Positions 30,320 to 64,000 of a stretch of 64,000 nt of DNA are shown here, piece by piece. A model generated the notes under the pieces. That model was not told the DNA's origin. It did no database searches and saw only the letters and a program-made list of their open reading frames with translations. How positions within the stretch are numbered: the stretch's first letter is position 1; every line of letters starts with the position of its first letter. Both the position numbers and the translations under genes were made by a program. The DNA is from Glaciihabitans sp. INWT7 (GTDB lineage: Bacteria; Actinomycetota; Actinomycetes; Actinomycetales; Microbacteriaceae), in NCBI RefSeq assembly GCF_014217685.1, contig NZ_CP043653.1, forward strand, positions 1,554,419 through 1,618,418, read 5' to 3'.

Positions 30320-31057
30320 GTGCGACTGGTGGATGCCGCACATGACACTGCAGCGGGTGACCCCGGCAATCGCACCGAGGCATGGTTCGACCGCCTCGGC
30401 GTGTTCGACCTCGAGACCACGGGGATAGACACCGAAACCAGTCGTATCGTCTCCGCCTATGTCGGAGTGGTGGATGCCCAGGGAATGCCCAAGGGCGTGT
30501 CCTGGCTCGCCGATCCCGGCGTCGAGATCCCCGCGCAGGCTGCGGCGGTTCACGGCATCACCACAGAGCGGGCGCGAGCCGAGGGTCGGGATGCCGCTGA
30601 GGTCGTCGCAGAGATCGTGGCGGTGCTGCGCGCGCTCCTGGCCCAGGGGGTGCCGATAGTGATCTACAACGCCGCCTACGATCTGACGCTGCTCAACCGG
30701 GAATGCCTCCGCTACGGCATCGAACCGCTCGACGATCCGCTGCCCATCATCGATCCCCTCGTGATCGACCGCGCGATGGACCGCTACCGCAAGGGCAAAC
30801 GAACCCTCGAGGTGGCGGCGGAGTACTACGGCGTCGAGCTCATGGACGCCCACGATGCGCAAGCGGATGCCGTTGCGGCCGGACGGGTCGCCCAGGCCAT
30901 CGCCCGCAAGTATTCGGACACGCTGGGGCAGGATGCGACGCTCGTGCATACCAACCAGGTGACCTGGGCGGCCGACAGCGCCACGAGTTTCCAGGACTAC
31001 ATGCGCCGCACCAAAGACCCGGCCTTCGTCGCGGACGGGGCCTGGCCGCAGCGCTGA
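30320..31057 (+). CDS. DEDDh 3'-5' exonuclease (DnaQ/epsilon-like)
   Basis: A 245-residue RNase H-fold exonuclease. Exo I has Asp30 and Glu32 in FDLETTG, Exo II is in IVIYNAAYDLTLLNREC, and Exo III has the His and Asp of DAHDAQADA. This is the proofreading-type fold, but the protein is free-standing and lacks polymerase-contact motifs, like the many epsilon-like exonucleases of actinobacteria. The GTG start (30320) directly follows the treS stop, so translation is probably coupled although the functions seem unrelated. The first 24 residues precede the fold; an internal start cannot be excluded. It is closed by repeats and a hairpin terminator. Confidence 0.88.
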   Translation: MRLVDAAHDTAAGDPGNRTEAWFDRLGVFDLETTGIDTETSRIVSAYVGVVDAQGMPKGVSWLADPGVEIPAQAAAVHGITTERARAEGRDAAEVVAEIVAVLRALLAQGVPIVIYNAAYDLTLLNRECLRYGIEPLDDPLPIIDPLVIDRAMDRYRKGKRTLEVAAEYYGVELMDAHDAQADAVAAGRVAQAIARKYSDTLGQDATLVHTNQVTWAADSATSFQDYMRRTKDPAFVADGAWPQR

Positions 31058-31066
31058 GGCCACGCT

Positions 31067-31108
31067 GCTGAAGCCGCAGTGCTGAAGCCGCAGTACTGAA
31101 GCCGCAGT
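31067..31108. repeat. Three tandem 14-bp repeats
   Basis: Three consecutive units of (G/A)CTGAAGCCGCAGT at 31067-31080, 31081-31094 and 31095-31108, identical except for the first base. They lie in the short gap after the exonuclease gene, before the terminator. Confidence 0.95.
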
Positions 31109-31121
31109 GGGGCCAAGCACG

Positions 31122-53321: not shown

Positions 53322-54296
53322 ATGATCGTCGACCTTCCCAACACCACCACGAGCCAGATCTCGAAGACTCTCGTCAAGATCCGAGAGGAAGGCGGCGCCG
53401 TCGCGCTCGGGCGCGTTCTCACCCTGGTGATCTCCACGAATCTCGGACACGAGGAGGAGGCGATCGAGGCCGCGAATGACGCGTCCCGCGAGCATCCGAT
53501 GCGCGTGATCGTCATCTCTACCGGTCCCGACGGAGCCGCGGTAGCGGACACGGCACGGCTCGACGCCCAGATCCGTGTCGGCGGAGACGCTGGCGCCAGC
53601 GAAGTGGTCGTGCTCAAGGCCTACGGCGACACCGCCTCGGACGAGGAGGGGCTCGTCACGGGACTCCTGCTTCCCGACGCACCCGTCGTCGCCTGGTGGC
53701 CGGGAGAGGCCCCGGAGATCGTCTCCAAATCCCCCCTGGGGCGCATCGCCCAGCGTCGGATCACGGATGCCGCGGCACAGAGCGATCCGCGAGGATTTCT
53801 GAACCACCTCTCGCGCACCTACAGCCCGGGCGACACCGACTTCTCCTGGACGCGCCTCACACTCTGGCGCGCACAGCTCGCCGCCGTGCTCGACCAGCCG
53901 CCCTATGAACCCATCACCGGTGTCGAGGTGCACGGCGCCCCGGACTCCCCATCGACCGGGTTGCTTGCGGCCTGGTTGCAGATGCAGCTCGAGGTTCCGG
54001 CACGTCACGAGCTCGTGACGCCCTCTCACGGTTCGAGCGGAATCCAGGGGGTGCGGCTCCACCGGGCCTCCGGAGTGATCGAGCTCGAACGCACGCACAC
54101 GAATATCGTCACGCTCGTTCAGCCCAACCAGCCCGTGCATGACATCTCTCTCATCCGTCGCAGTCTGCGTGACTGCCTGGCCGAGGAGCTGCGTCGCCTC
54201 GACCCCGACGACCTGTTCGGGGCGGTGATCCAGCACGGTCTGGCGGAGCTGGATGCGCCGACAGTCACCGGATCCATCACGGTGCCCGAAGCATGA
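53322..54296 (+). CDS. opcA: Glucose-6-phosphate dehydrogenase assembly protein OpcA
   Basis: A 324-residue actinobacterial/cyanobacterial protein that binds and activates glucose-6-phosphate dehydrogenase; redox-active in cyanobacteria, but no conserved cysteine pair is visible here. Family traits are the start MIVDLPNTTTSQISKTLVKIREEGGAVALGRVLTLVI, the LLPDAPVVAWWPGEAPE motif, and DFSWTRLTLWRAQLAAVLDQPP. It lies 22 nt after zwf and overlaps pgl by 4 nt, the usual order. Confidence 0.95.
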   Translation: MIVDLPNTTTSQISKTLVKIREEGGAVALGRVLTLVISTNLGHEEEAIEAANDASREHPMRVIVISTGPDGAAVADTARLDAQIRVGGDAGASEVVVLKAYGDTASDEEGLVTGLLLPDAPVVAWWPGEAPEIVSKSPLGRIAQRRITDAAAQSDPRGFLNHLSRTYSPGDTDFSWTRLTLWRAQLAAVLDQPPYEPITGVEVHGAPDSPSTGLLAAWLQMQLEVPARHELVTPSHGSSGIQGVRLHRASGVIELERTHTNIVTLVQPNQPVHDISLIRRSLRDCLAEELRRLDPDDLFGAVIQHGLAELDAPTVTGSITVPEA

Positions 54297-55063
54297 GCAA
54301 CGCCCGACGCGTGCTCGTGCACGCGGACAAGAAGGCTCTCGCCGGCTCGGTCGCGGCTCGCTTCATCACCAAGGTGGTCGATCTGCTCGACCAGCAGCCG
54401 CGCGTGAACATCGCGCTCACGGGCGGTACCGTCGGCAGCGCGGTTCTCCAGGCGATCAGCGAATCTCCCGCACGGGACAGCATCGACTGGTCACGGGTGG
54501 TGCTCTGGTGGAGCGACGAGCGCTGGCTGCCGAAGGGCGACGCCGAACGCAACGACACCCAGGCGCGAGCGGCTCTCCTCGACCACGTCGCGCTCCGCCC
54601 GGAGAACATCCACTGGTGTGCCGCGTCGGATTCGGGCCTCAGCCTCGATGATGCCGCGACCGCCTACGCCGAGGAGCTCGCGGATGCCGCGGAAGAGGGC
54701 CGTGACACGCCTCGATTCGACATCCTGTTCCTCGGGGTCGGGCCGGACGGGCACGTGGCGTCGCTGTTCCCGGATGCCCCGGGCATCCGTGTCACCGAAG
54801 GTTCGGTCATCGCTGTGCGCAACTCCCCCAAGCCGCCACCCGAGCGCCTCAGCCTCACACTGCCGGTGATCAACAGTGCGGACCGTATCTGGCTTGCGCT
54901 GTCCGGCCCGGACAAGGCCTCCGCCCTTGGACTCGCCCTCGCCGGAGCGAGCACCTGGGAGGTGCCGGTCGCCGGTGTCGAAGGACGCTTGCGCACGGTC
55001 TTCTTCGTCGACCAAGAGGCGGCAGCCGAGGTTCCGGAAGACCTCATCGCTGCGGAGTACTGA
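54293..55063 (+). CDS. pgl: 6-phosphogluconolactonase
   Basis: A 256-residue DevB/Pgl-type lactonase hydrolysing the product of zwf. Signature segments are NIALTGGTVGSAVLQAI, VVLWWSDERWLPKGDAERN, LFLGVGPDGHVASLFPDAP and VNSADRIWLALSGPDKA. It overlaps opcA (ATGA) and is the last gene of the pentose phosphate operon. A 6-phosphogluconate dehydrogenase gene is not in the window. The stop is followed at once by an inverted repeat and then the 94-bp repeat array. Confidence 0.96.
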   Translation: MSNARRVLVHADKKALAGSVAARFITKVVDLLDQQPRVNIALTGGTVGSAVLQAISESPARDSIDWSRVVLWWSDERWLPKGDAERNDTQARAALLDHVALRPENIHWCAASDSGLSLDDAATAYAEELADAAEEGRDTPRFDILFLGVGPDGHVASLFPDAPGIRVTEGSVIAVRNSPKPPPERLSLTLPVINSADRIWLALSGPDKASALGLALAGASTWEVPVAGVEGRLRTVFFVDQEAAAEVPEDLIAAEY

Positions 55064-55066
55064 CGG

Positions 55067-55140
55067 CGGCGTTGGCCTAGCGCTCGCTTCGCAGGCTGTC
55101 TCGCTGAGGTCGTCCCGGATGGGGTATTCCGCCAACGCCG
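55067..55140. repeat. Long inverted repeat directly after pgl
   Basis: CGGCGTTGGC (55067-55076) and GCCAACGCCG (55131-55140) form a perfect 10-bp stem around 54 nt that can fold further. It is probably the pgl terminator or a REP-like element; it borders the tandem array. Confidence 0.7.
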
Positions 55141-55149
55141 GATCGGGCG

Positions 55150-55990
55150 CCATCCGTCACTGACTGTCCTCGGGGAAGGGCGCCGCGGCGATTCGTGACG
55201 GCTCGGCCACACTCGGTCGCTGGGCGGGGTCACCGCGCGGGCCGACGGCTCGACCACGCTCGGCCGCCAGCGGGTCACCGTGCGGGCGTCATCCGCTAGA
55301 AACTGTTCTCCGGTGGGCCCTTCGCCGCATTCGGTGACGGGTGGGTCACTCGCGGTCACTGGCGAGGGTCACCGCGGCGGAGTCATCCGTCACAAACTGT
55401 TCGCCGGTGGGCTCCACGCCGCATTCGGTGACGGGTCGGTCGGGCCCGGTCTCCGGTAGGCGCATCATGCGGGAGTCATCCGTCACAGACTACCCTCTGG
55501 GTTGCCCTTCGCGACGATTGGCGACGGGTCTGTCGCGGGGTCAGCGCTCACCCTACGCGGGCGACAACCGTGAAAGGGTCCGTCGCGGAGCCCGTTCCCC
55601 GCCACGCCTGTCGGATGGGCCGAGGTTCGCTCCCGTATCCCAGGCCCGCCCGTGCAGAGTGATTCGTTACTGGCTGGATCGCGGCAGGTCCCCTCGCGCG
55701 GTGCCCGAGATTCCCAGCTGCAGCGACGCCCTCAAACCCATCCGTCGGCAAAGGTCTTTAGAGCATGGTTTTCCCGCGCAAAGTGACGGACGAGCCGAGC
55801 GGTCAGCTGCGGCGAGATAAGCGAAGACGCGCAATTCGTCGGGAAAAGTCCTCTGAGTAGGGCTATCCCGCGTAAATTGACGGACGAGCCTCGCGGTGCG
55901 CTGCGGCTGGGTGCGCGAGAACCCCTGATCCGTCGCAACCTGCACCGAAGCCGGCTTTTCGCGTCCATTTTTGACGGGCGGTGAGCGGTG
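55150..55990. repeat. Tandem array of about 94-bp hairpin units, non-coding
   Basis: The 1.08-kb gap between convergent pgl and rbpA holds diverged tandem repeats. Seven units show the motif ATCCGTC (55152, 55291, 55385, 55478, 55740, 55834 as ATTCGTC, 55928; the second reads ATCCGCT) followed exactly 44 nt later by its inverse TGACGG (55196, 55335, 55429, 55522 as CGACGG, 55784, 55878, 55972). Unit spacing is 94, 93, 94 and 94 nt between neighbours; the 139- and 262-nt jumps hide further decayed units, and a 47-nt half period is seen near 55196-55290. Each unit can form a hairpin with a CCGTC/GACGG stem. Stops occur in all frames I checked and no gene is supported. Bases 55991-56145 hold nothing I recognise. 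Confidence 0.85.
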
Positions 55991-56145
55991 AGGGGATGCG
56001 GCCGGGTGCTCTCGCCACCCCGGCGGCATCCGTGGCTCACAGGTTTCGTACGCAACCGGCGGGCGGGAGTCGACACAAAGCGGCGACCGTTAGACAGCAA
56101 CGGGATCTCGTCGATCCCCACCACCTGCGGGACCCCGCGCGAATG

Positions 56146-56511
56146 CTACTGGGGCGTGAGGCGACCGCGACGCGCGCGGAGCTGCTCGAGCGCCTCGTCG
56201 AGGAGCGTTGCCGCTTCCTCTTCGGTGCGGCGCTCTTTCACGTAGGCGAGATGAGTCTTGTAGGGCTCGACCTTGACCACCGACGGAGGATTCTCCTTGT
56301 CACGACCCGCGGGAAGGCCGCAGTTCGGGCAATCGAGAGTGTTGGGGATCTCCTCTGGCTCGATCGTCGCCAAGAAGTGGGGGCTCAACTCGTGTCCATT
56401 TGCACACCAGTAGAAGACCTGGAGACGCTCCGCGTGGAATCCACGGTCCTGCTCGCCCATCGGACCTGCTCCCACGCGGGAACCACGAATAGCGCTGCCA
56501 CCTGAAGCCAT
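56146..56511 (-). CDS. rbpA: RNA polymerase-binding protein RbpA
   Basis: A 121-residue actinobacterial transcription factor that binds RNA polymerase and the principal sigma factor and helps open promoters. The order is an N-terminal tail with the RGSRVG basic motif, the core domain with CANGH (Cys36, His40) and CPNC (Cys61, Cys64), a zinc-binding form as in Streptomyces, the basic linker, and the sigma-interacting helix KTHLAYVKERRTEEEAATLLDEAL. AGGAGA precedes ATG 56511. It lies 11 nt after secG on the same strand. Confidence 0.95.
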   Translation of the reverse strand: MASGGSAIRGSRVGAGPMGEQDRGFHAERLQVFYWCANGHELSPHFLATIEPEEIPNTLDCPNCGLPAGRDKENPPSVVKVEPYKTHLAYVKERRTEEEAATLLDEALEQLRARRGRLTPQ

Positions 56512-56522
56512 GGGTACGTCTC

Positions 56523-56774
56523 CTAGCCAGTTACGTCGAACTTGGTGATCAGACCGAGCACGATGATCGATGCGACCCAGATCAGCGCGAGAATCAGCGT
56601 GATGCGGTTGAGGTTTCGTTCCGCGACTCCGGATGCTCCGAGGTTGCTGGTCACTCCGCCACCGAACATGTCGGACAACCCGCCGCCGCGACCGCGGTGC
56701 AGCAGGATGAGGAGGGTCAGCAGGAGGCTCGTGATGCCGAGCACCACCTGCAGGATGACCTGAAGAATTTCCAC
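56523..56774 (-). CDS. secG: Preprotein translocase subunit SecG
   Basis: An 83-residue inner-membrane subunit of SecYEG with two predicted helices (about 2-23 and 57-77) flanking the short cytosolic loop LLHRGRGGGLSDMFGGGV, the SecG signature. The start is GTG 56774 with AAAGG 9 nt upstream. It follows tpiA on the same strand as in many actinobacteria, but has its own -10 TATACT and is followed by rbpA. Confidence 0.94.
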   Translation of the reverse strand: MEILQVILQVVLGITSLLLTLLILLHRGRGGGLSDMFGGGVTSNLGASGVAERNLNRITLILALIWVASIIVLGLITKFDVTG

Positions 56775-56821
56775 GAACAGCCTTTCTGGGGCGCGCCGAT
56801 GAGGTCTATCGGGCGCGGTTT

Positions 56822-56827
56822 AGTATA
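56822..56827 (-). promoter_or_regulatory. -10 element of secG-rbpA
   Basis: TATACT on the minus strand (within AAGTTATACTAAACC), about 47 nt before the secG GTG, in the gap after tpiA. A good match to the housekeeping -10 consensus. Confidence 0.6.
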
Positions 56828-56872
56828 ACTTGCCGAAACGGTCGGCGACGAAACCGCCGAGCCGAGCCGAGC

Positions 56873-57658
56873 TCAGGTGCCGACGTGCTTCTGGAACTGC
56901 GCGATGCTCGAGAACTCGGCAAGATCGAGGCTCGCTCCCCCGACCAGCGCGCCATCCACATTCGGCTCTCGCATAAAACCCGCGATGTTCGAGGCCTTGA
57001 CGGACCCGCCATAGAGGATGCGAGTGGCGGATGCCGCCTCCTCGCCGATCAGCTCGGTCAGAGTCGCCCGCAGCTGGGCCGCTACCTGCTCCGCCTGCGC
57101 GGGAGTCGCCGCTTGACCCGAGCCGATCGCCCAGACCGGCTCGTACGCCACGACGATGTTCGCTCCGGTCTTCACCGACGCAAGAGCCGCGCGCAGCTGG
57201 GCGACAGGAACCGCGCTCGGCCCGTGCTTCTCGAGGTCTTCTGCGGTCTCGCCGACACACAGCACGGGAACGAGCCCGTGAGCGATCGCCGCAGCGACCT
57301 TCGCCGCGAGTTCTTCATCTGTCTCGTGATGCAGCGTGCGTCGCTCGGAATGCCCGACGATGACGTACTCGCAATCCAGCGCCTTCAGGAAGGCGCCCGA
57401 GATCTCGCCGGTGTAGGCGCCGGAGTCGTGGGCCGATACATCCTGCCCACCGAACTTGAGGGATAGCTTGTCAGCCGAGATGAGGGTCTGCACCGAGCGG
57501 AGGTCGGTGAACGGCGGGAATATGGCAACCTCGACGGTGCCGTAGTCGAGCTTCGCGTCCTTGAGGCTCCAGGCGAGCTTCTGCACAAACGCGATGGACT
57601 GCAGGTGGTCGAGATTCATCTTCCAGTTGCCGGCGATGAAGGGGGTACGAGTGGTCAT
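56873..57658 (-). CDS. tpiA: Triose-phosphate isomerase
   Basis: A 261-residue TIM-barrel enzyme interconverting dihydroxyacetone phosphate and glyceraldehyde-3-phosphate. Active-site residues are Lys13 (AGNWKMN), His103 (IVGHSERR) and Glu173 (AYEPVWAIG), and the phosphate loop GGSVKASN is present. ATG 57658 overlaps the pgk stop by 4 nt (ATGA) with GGATGG upstream; an in-frame ATG at 57670 is an alternative. Third gene of the gap-pgk-tpiA operon. Confidence 0.97.
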   Translation of the reverse strand: MTTRTPFIAGNWKMNLDHLQSIAFVQKLAWSLKDAKLDYGTVEVAIFPPFTDLRSVQTLISADKLSLKFGGQDVSAHDSGAYTGEISGAFLKALDCEYVIVGHSERRTLHHETDEELAAKVAAAIAHGLVPVLCVGETAEDLEKHGPSAVPVAQLRAALASVKTGANIVVAYEPVWAIGSGQAATPAQAEQVAAQLRATLTELIGEEAASATRILYGGSVKASNIAGFMREPNVDGALVGGASLDLAEFSSIAQFQKHVGT

Positions 57659-62839: not shown

Positions 62840-64000
62840 TCACTCCCGGAGTTTTTCGAAGATCGTCTGGGCGATCACATTGCCGACTCCCTTGACCTCG
62901 GAGATCGCTTCCGGCTGGGCGGCGCGGAGCTGGGTCACGGAGCCGAAGTGGCGGAGCAGTTCCTTGACCCGGGCCGGACCGAGCCCGGGAATCTCAGACA
63001 GCACCGAGCCGACATCTCGCTTGCGCCGCTGGCGTTGATACGTGATCGCGAAGCGGTGAGCCTCGTCGCGGATGCGCTGGATCAGGAAGAGAGCGTCACT
63101 GTTGCGCGGAAGGATCACCGGGTAGTCGTTGCCCGGCAGCCAGATCTCCTCGAGTCGTTTGGCGATGCCGCACAGCGCGATCCCGGTGATGCCCGCGTCC
63201 TCAAGGGCACGGGCGGCGGCGGCGACCTGTGGTTGCCCGCCATCGACGATGAGCAGGTTGGGACGGTAGGCGAAACGCGGACGCGCCGGATTGGGGCCCG
63301 CCTCTGTACTCTCGGCGATCCCTGTTCCTTCGGCAGTCCCTGTTCCTTCGGCGATCCCTGTTCCTTCGGCGGTCCCTGTGCCCACGGCCTGACTCAGGGC
63401 CTCGGCCACGGCGGCCGCCGGATCGTCATCGAGGTGCGCGAGCCGACGGGACAGGGTCTGGTAGATCGATTCCGTGTCGTCGGTGGACTCCGGGATGCTG
63501 AAGCGGCGGTACTGGTCTTTGCGCGGCAGCCCGTCTTCGAAGACGACCATGGAGGCGACGATGTTGGTGCCGCTCAAGTGGGAGACGTCGTAGCATTCCA
63601 TGCGAAGCGGCGCATCATCCATCCCCAGCGCCTGCTGGATATCGGCCAGAGCCTGCGACCGGGCCACGAAGTCGCCGCTTCGACGCGTCTTGTAGAGGAT
63701 CAGGGCATTGCGGGCGTTGGTCGCGACGGTGAGGGCGAGTGCGGCGAGCTCGCCGCGCTGGGCGACACGGATGACCACTTTGCCGCTGCCCACACCGCGC
63801 TCCGACCGCAGTTCGGTGAGCCAGGTCTCGAGCTCCGCAGCATCATCAGGTAATTCCGGCACGACGACGAGCCGTGGCGGATCGAGTTCGTCGTAGGCGT
63901 TGTGCACGACGGTCTCGACGAGTTCGTCCAGCTCCAGATCCAGTTCCTTGTCGACGACCCAACTGCGCACACCACGGATGCGGCCACCACGCACCGTGAA
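62840..64000 (-). CDS. uvrC: UvrC, excision nuclease subunit (5' end outside window)
   Basis: C-terminal part (387 codons) of the nuclease that makes both incisions in nucleotide excision repair with UvrA and UvrB. Seen here: the stretch after the UVR motif, then the RNase H-like 5'-incision domain with Asp in [11 protein letters not shown] and [10 protein letters not shown] and the His/Asp region [10 protein letters not shown], and the C-terminal double helix-hairpin-helix ([33 protein letters not shown]). The GIY-YIG domain lies beyond the right edge. A minisatellite-coded loop of GTG(T/I)AE repeats interrupts the RNase H-like domain before VDGG. It ends 43 nt before rapZ. Confidence 0.96.
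63317..63388 (-). repeat. 18-bp minisatellite within uvrC
   Basis: Four tandem 18-nt units (63317-63334, 63335-63352, 63353-63370, 63371-63388); the first three are nearly identical and the fourth is diverged. They encode Gly-Thr-Gly-(Thr/Ile)-Ala-Glu hexapeptides in a surface loop of the UvrC RNase H-like domain. The unit length keeps the frame. Confidence 0.92.

Follow-up and report, generated by a model that had tools for sequence, protein, structure and literature searches.

Introduction

Bacterial interspersed palindromes are commonly interpreted as selfish REP elements or else as terminators. The GTAG REPs and REPINs are extragenic hairpins of 20-40 bp with the tetranucleotide GTAG at their foot, which go together with a RAYT (Y1_Tnp) gene and are found mainly downstream of genes. 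Inverted pairs near gene ends are also formed by the DNA-uptake sequences (DUS) of Neisseriaceae, which are written in species dialects, and the mycobacterial MIRU/VNTR loci consist of tandem intergenic units that range from some tens to about 100 bp. The CGTC-tagged REPs are characterized, in the parts of the source used here, by one unpaired CGTC tag, a stem of 8-9 bp, a loop of 4-5 nt and a CCA-like tail (Di Nocera 2013, PMC3733652); these parts do not contain the word Actinobacteria, and they refer, from an earlier source, to untagged REP-like repeats in M. tuberculosis. In the corresponding portions of the RepRanger paper, thousands of intergenic palindromes are predicted in the genomes of Arthrobacter and two other Actinomycetota (PMC12306157).

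The window, that is the whole stretch of 64,000 nt of the Glaciihabitans sp. INWT7 genome that was analysed, contains between pgl and rbpA an array which is very probably one locus, enlarged and in part worn, of a family of 48-50 bp inverted repeats dispersed in Microbacteriaceae. Like the CGTC-tagged REPs, as far as the consulted parts of their description go, these elements are short palindromes with CGTC at an end, located downstream of genes and between convergent or co-directional ones, and without a known dedicated transposase; unlike them, they carry CCGTC inside both arms, where it is paired in intact copies, they measure 48-50 bp, and they have a genome-specific spelling (PMC3733652). 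With the GTAG REPs, REPINs and BIMEs they share the character of dispersed intergenic palindromes at 3′ ends, some in regularly spaced arrays, but they have no GTAG foot (CCGTC...GACGG instead), are longer, and occur in a genus where none of 13 genomes has a Y1_Tnp match. They differ from Neisseriaceae DUS by the lack of a clear excess of single half-sites (in the comparison genome G229) and by their low copy number, and from MIRU/VNTR loci in that the 94-bp period is secondary, the dispersed unit being the 48-50 bp inverted repeat. The RepRanger counts are generic palindrome counts, with a default length of at most 32 nt, and the portions of the paper referred to above describe neither such a family nor Microbacteriaceae (PMC12306157). 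The family belongs among the interspersed palindromic repeats and is ordinary in its general kind; what is unusual is that near-constant length, placement at gene ends and a spelling peculiar to each genome come together in it. No description of such a family in Microbacteriaceae was found in the open-licence literature.

An interrupted array between pgl and rbpA

The array is flanked by two convergent genes, the 6-phosphogluconolactonase-family gene pgl (54293..55063, + strand; PF01182, 6-phosphogluconolactonase/glucosamine isomerase family) and rbpA (56146..56511, - strand; PF13397, RbpA), whose 3′ ends point toward it. According to gene calls by a home-made codon-usage script trained on the window, no intergenic stretch of the window is longer than the 1082 bp between them (55064-56145), and the runner-up measures 715 bp. 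Both the rank of this region and its position between convergent genes agree with an earlier description made from the letters of the window without database searches (the sequence-only reading), which had reported a tandem array of 94-bp hairpin units with ATCCGTC and TGACGG motifs held exactly 44 nt apart in seven units. When an ATCCGTC-like motif (up to two mismatches) followed by a TGACGG-like motif (up to one mismatch) is counted as a pair, seven pairs with this exact spacing are found, starting at 55152, 55291, 55385, 55478, 55740, 55834 and 55928. Both motifs are exact in four of them (55152, 55385, 55740 and 55928), and the remaining pairs have two mismatches (55291) or one (55478 and 55834). 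The spacing is real: 500 dinucleotide-preserving shuffles of 55064-56145 yielded at most two pairs at 44 nt and, for any spacing from 20 to 99, at most four. The periodicity near 94 (or 47) is equally borne out, as self-identity at lag 94 (0.374) lies above the maximum that 500 shuffles reach over all lags of 30-199 (0.341), and Tandem Repeats Finder returns a period of 94 at 55272-55451 and 55740-55935 and of 47 at 55197-55287. The distance of 93-94 nt claimed for neighbouring units applies to four of the six intervals; the other two measure 139 and 262, which makes the array an interrupted one. Successive units are 23-30 substitutions and 1-6 gap events apart, at net lengths of 93-94, and adjacent ones are roughly 60-80% alike.

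The inverted repeats within this array, none of which is assigned to a strand, all appear in the motif listing, and they were compared with a covariance model (R2) and a sequence profile (R3) that are defined below. Unit 1 is a 48-bp inverted repeat (CCGTC...GACGG) at 55154..55201, matched by R2 and by R3 (E 1e-6). At 55197..55287 the repeat finder places two copies of a 47-bp tandem duplication, likewise without strand, which may be the source of the 139-bp step from unit 1 to unit 2. The latter (55293..55340; R3 E 0.0025) has a worn left arm, reading CCGCT. Unit 3 (55387..55434; R2, R3 E 1.8e-9) is the best-preserved copy and is followed by unit 4 (55480..55527; R2, R3 E 1.1e-6). A very worn eighth unit of 47 bp is possible at about 55568..55614, where the motif listing is the only support and R3 gives no match. 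Units 7, 8 and 9 of our own numbering lie at 55742..55789 (R3 E 0.00028), 55836..55883 (R3 E 0.0061) and 55930..55977 (R2, R3 E 0.026).

In 11 relatives of the same genus whose pgl locus was read, the gap between pgl and rbpA measures only 28-291 bp and no element was reported in it; the array is therefore lineage-specific within this sample. Short unrelated hairpins were seen by eye between pgl and rbpA at four of the relatives' loci (L007, L008, L010 and L014). In the window itself, inspection by eye also revealed, past the stop codon of pgl and before the array, a perfect inverted repeat of 9 bp (GGCGTTGGC/GCCAACGCC, 55068-55076 and 55131-55139, with a loop of 54 nt), and the repeat finder located two tandem arrays unrelated to the present finding, at 63312-63379 and 31045-31109 (an 18-bp unit repeated 3.8 times and a 14-bp unit repeated 4.6 times).

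Anatomy of a dispersed inverted repeat

In what follows, G000 is the window's own genome, other G numbers denote comparison genomes and L numbers fetched loci. The element is an inverted repeat of 48-50 bp with the form CCGTC-N7-GC...GC-N7-GACGG, and the 94 bp that the sequence-only reading had taken for the unit correspond to one such element plus a spacer. A pattern search of G000 uncovered more clusters of motif pairs at about 343k, 400k, 713k, 720k, 1305k, 1487k and 3166k, and 26 units of these seven loci, which had been chosen with fixed-length patterns, align without gaps over 72 columns. R2, the covariance model built from these 26 units with the window units left out, recovers four window units and, elsewhere in G000, about 16 loci with E values up to 1, a few of which are weak matches. 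R3 is a sequence-only profile of 45 elements from 12 genomes, none of them from G000; its input was capped at seven 48-bp copies from each genome, which kept 45 of the 79 available, and 49-bp copies were left out. Applied to both strands of the window with E up to 10, R3 gives 16 rows, all within 55147-55981, and it matches 14 of the 15 other G000 loci, missing L064.

A strict detector run over 734 kb of fetched loci identified 164 elements, against zero for the reversed control. When lengths of 34-80 were allowed, only 48 (63 elements), 49 (54) and 50 (2) occurred, the reversed control giving two at 44. This constancy is partly a matter of construction, since detector and pattern require the boxes and the loci of G048, G273, G336, G342, G229 and G415 were fetched by a pattern fixed to those lengths; loci found via R2, where indels are allowed, also contain only lengths of 48-50 in the strict detector (47-51 allowed). 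Small indels are present in some worn G000 copies, with R2 rows of 69-73 nt for 72 positions. Conserved in both arms are CCGTC and, 7 nt inward of it, a GC box, which is again partly due to how the detector is built; the distance between these two boxes is about one helical turn. The half-sites (CCGTC-N7-GC) are inverted and 20-22 bp apart. In G229, all 20 half-sites with at most one mismatch are paired, and 14 of the 17 with two mismatches are single, vs 5 in the reversed-pattern control. No window unit is recovered by the strict detector, the copies there being too worn, and none of its elements lies in the fetched loci of G174, G012, G011, G006, G156, G218 and G200.

Distribution and spelling

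A search with the unit in the same genome and in other Microbacteriaceae, proposed in the sequence-only reading, reveals dispersed copies in both. R2 matches 17 of 199 genomes and 11 of 85 genera of the family, G000 included, and with the strict filters used these are lower bounds: the search misses members such as G048, which has 44 pattern matches and is absent from the 17. Within the genus, 5 of 13 genomes, again with G000, match at E 0.01. The palindromic pattern exceeds its reversed control by 23 to 1 in G000, 15 to 0 in G007, 19 to 0 in G023, 44 to 0 in G048, 16 to 0 in G229, 27 to 0 in G273, 25 to 1 in G342 and 12 to 1 in G336. At least one match is present in 228 of 398 genomes, most of them at control level. 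The listed matches of G400 and G339 were recognized by eye as chance matches in coding sequence, as were a minority of those in G048, G342 and G229 (about 4 of 16 in G229), and raw per-genome pattern counts are no proof of elements. Among 396 genomes of the phylum, G000 alone passes E 1e-5 with R3, G167, which has pattern palindromes, being missed; strict filters in the family and phylum searches miss members, and zero matches outside Microbacteriaceae are not evidence of absence. BLAST of the entire 1082-bp stretch against the genus gave, besides itself, short weak matches in 5 of 12 other genomes; with conservation limited to the 48-bp core, this search did not recover the family.

Between the boxes and just outside them, the letters are peculiar to each genome, and the distribution of the family among related species is patchy. 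In G048 two subfamilies often stand side by side (L126, L129, L130, L134, L139 and L144), spelled differently in the same 49-bp frame and with a spacing of 63-127 bp.

Placement at gene ends and spacing of neighbours

The strict detector's elements form 130 clusters (window excluded), of which 62 are located between convergent and 56 between tandem genes, 3 between divergent ones, 5 inside genes as called by the script described above and 4 at edges. A gene 3′ end adjoins 118 of the 121 intergenic clusters with both flanks called, the median distance being 39.5 nt to a 3′ end vs 122 nt to a start, and many elements lie 10-40 nt past a stop codon. For the same loci, the intergenic stretches of more than 60 nt, element-bearing ones included, number 86 between convergent, 144 between tandem and 65 between divergent genes. 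Of 77 model-defined loci counted earlier, 37 were convergent, 35 tandem and 2 divergent, with 2 inside genes and 1 at an edge. Two in-gene elements are found in an ABC-transporter gene of two genomes of one genus (L181:1535-1582 and L116:2593-2640), at amino acids 320 and 322, in the same frame and with different spelling; according to Pfam, the L181 site falls between the membrane and ATPase domains.

The 618 called proteins of these loci were clustered, and the 25 largest clusters consist only of DUF559-like proteins, ABC transporters and genes of shared synteny, which speaks against a cognate gene beside the elements; in these clusters there is no candidate for a binding protein and nothing recombinase- or regulator-like. 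More generally, neither the flanking-gene nor the Y1_Tnp searches found a reader or mover protein for the elements. The DUF559-like cluster has one gene each in the loci of seven genomes (L059, L074, L113, L103, L167, L097 and L089); three of these genes were run against Pfam, two passing the cut-off and one falling slightly below it, and their recurrence may reflect the mere commonness of such genes.

Steps near 93 between neighbouring elements recur in G000 loci with unrelated-looking spacers, in G007 and in G336, and steps near 104 in G000, G007 and G174; the distances in G048 are 63, 82, 83, 84, 94, 94, 104, 107, 127 and 165 bp. Seventeen gaps from G048, G273, G336 and G342 fit 10.5-bp steps through 45 (V-test, p 0.0019), in a test that is weakly held out, the G336 gap being known when the hypothesis was formed and the G048 and G273 spacings having been seen before the test was written. 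Over all periods from 6 to 20, the same gaps give p 0.52, with the best period at 11.4, and a wider test of all spacings of 80-160 has its best period at 9.5 and little signal at 10.5. Helical phasing of the elements is a lead, and suggestive only.

Arm covariation and orthologous sites

Between genomes, the two arms covary strongly (172 double-change cells vs 52 expected, sd 7). Within a genome or subfamily, arm pairing is no better than when arms are dealt among copies in 8 of 10 sets, with p values of 0.535 (G000), 0.29 (G007), 0.105 (G023), 0.36 (G273), 0.98 (G336), 0.57 (G229), and 0.32 and 0.33 for the two subfamilies of G048. Covariation is present within G342 (p 0.001) and G048 taken whole (p 0), probably because subfamilies are mixed there. 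The 26 G000 units with their outer flanks lie slightly above chance, the observed pairing being reached by 25 and the observed score by 18 of 500 shuffles. Half-sites for a single factor, or wear in copies of a palindromic founder, would lead one to expect such an arm pattern more than selection for a fold in every copy would.

Shared sites were judged by their flanking genes, for which 273 flanking proteins were compared. G000 has sites in common with G007 (L054/L079 and L067/L078), with both G007 and G012 (L059/L074/L083), and with G006 (L063/L085), where the G006 element is weak; the site shared by G007 L072 and G011 L084 has a different palindrome. Further shared sites are G072 L090/G196 L086, G023 L113/G229 L165 (two sites), G023 L114/G342 L174, G119 L115/G415 L184, G119 L116/G229 L181 and G229 L185/G342 L175. 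In 6 of the 10 ortholog pairs for which distances were computed, both copies are nearer to copies of their own genome (for example, 0.06 and 0.11 vs 0.20, or 0.10 and 0.20 vs 0.52); L059/L074 belongs here barely (0.41 vs 0.42), and L159/L183 rests on a single flanking gene of a large family. Two pairs are mixed (L114/L174, 0.09 and 0.36 vs 0.34; L116/L181, 0.20 and 0.06 vs 0.18), and in two the ortholog is nearer (L115/L184, 0.16 vs 0.20; L090/L086, 0.18 vs 0.20 and 0.22). Some genomes, though not all of them, show clear concerted change; independent insertion at preferred sites is an alternative. Near-perfect palindromes of other spelling were also noticed in G012 (L083:1178-1250 and 2232-2304) and G011 (L084:2307-2378), in gene-end regions that hold elements in G000 or G007.

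Folding of the array and of intact relatives

The sequence-only reading had supposed that a fold is kept in the array. The seven 55-nt window units have fold z scores of -2.8 to +0.3 on the + strand and -1.6 to +0.1 on the - strand, mostly near shuffled sequences, and the best folds of the two + strand outliers (-2.8 at 55289 and -2.5 at 55832) lack the CCGTC/GACGG stem. The entire array stretch folds no better than 20 shuffles for either strand, the arms of the seven units, whose covariation was to be checked, pair no better than shuffled arms, and the inner stem described near 55407-55420 is no consistent feature of the computed folds. An Rfam search of 54000-57000 returned four matches at E 5 or better, all below the gathering cut-off. 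A structured RNA in the window is accordingly rejected: folds are mostly near chance, there is no pairing beyond shuffles and no Rfam family. T-tract terminators number zero in 54950-56250 (shuffles, mean 0.9; other genomes were inspected by eye). Intact relatives form very stable hairpins (z -8 to -12 for four elements of other genomes), two G000 elements have z scores of -3.1 and -5.9, and intact elements outside the window may have an RNA role.

Discussion

What has to be explained is a family of near-constant length, placed at gene ends, spelled differently in each genome and occupying some of the same orthologous sites. The best explanation as a whole, which we would put slightly short of an even chance, is that the array is a locus of this dispersed family and that its paired half-sites are read by a candidate DNA-binding factor co-evolving with them. 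A sequence-specific protein would bind both half-sites of double-stranded DNA at gene ends, its specificity would drift along with the spelling of each genome, and bound arrays might form a barrier or boundary between converging transcription units. The combination of strong covariation between genomes with arm pairing no better than among dealt arms within 8 of 10 sets would be expected if one protein reads the half-sites. The arms that pair no better than shuffled ones could also represent neutral wear in copies of a palindromic founder, and the two G048 subfamilies would require, under protein reading, two proteins or a tolerant one. Among the options named in the sequence-only reading, protein binding is favoured; as a function of the elements it is a tentative proposal from sequence comparison, below an even chance, and our estimate was lowered a little after a recount, since the data of the spacing test were not as independent of the hypothesis as first taken and resemblance to the own genome's copies holds for 6 of 10 pairs, not for nearly all. 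Unlikely is a more far-reaching version, a Microbacteriaceae 3′-end boundary system in which a putative DNA-binding protein would evolve by species, tens of paired half-sites would change in concert at orthologous gene ends, and a phased array would insulate pgl from rbpA.

A mobile palindromic element of the REP/MITE kind, with a putative transposase preferring gene 3′ ends, with spelling set by the latest amplified founder and with local tandem duplication producing the array, is a somewhat unlikely alternative. It would account for copies that have a common unit of 48-60 bp in flanks unrelated by eye, for patchy presence among related species, for several subfamilies within one genome and for the independent wear of arms, and REPs, too, sit downstream of genes in the parts of the CGTC-REP study used here (PMC3733652). 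Against this, Y1_Tnp is matched in 0 of 13 genus genomes vs 5 of 14 control genomes, which speaks against a REP with RAYT for this genus only; no target duplication was noticed in the flanks on casual inspection, and several orthologous sites are occupied across species, unless insertion repeatedly picks them. The dispersal would suit a mobile, REP-like origin, which could hold alongside protein reading. RNA hairpins at mRNA 3′ ends, acting as bidirectional terminators or 3′ stabilizers, are an improbable explanation, even if the position of many elements shortly after a stop codon, the strong folds of intact copies in other genomes and the between-genome covariation of arms all speak for them: the window region is devoid of T-tract terminators, most of its units fold about like shuffles, within-genome covariation is lacking in most sets, and terminators need neither a genome-wide common sequence nor a constant length of 48-50. 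Intact copies may act as hairpin terminators; for the worn ones in the window this is less likely.

Two further explanations concern the array and the spelling, respectively. Limited similarity of adjacent window units, their interrupted spacing and their escape from the strict detector would suit a decaying satellite without function, but homologs throughout the family and shared positions make this very improbable, and given the R3 matches a satellite is unlikely as an account of the family. A DNA-uptake watermark with dialects, like the Neisseria DUS, would explain genome-specific spelling and inverted pairs after genes, but it is hardly probable at all: the copy number is in the tens, not thousands, and in the one genome considered, G229, the best half-sites are always paired, the single ones appearing among those with two mismatches in excess of the control.

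With its near-constant length, its gene-end placement, its spelling and some sites shared between species, the family allows one to ask directly what maintains such repeats: a reader protein, a mover or RNA structure. Clean bait sequences for finding the factor are at hand, for example in the near-perfect copies from the Herbiconiux group (G229).
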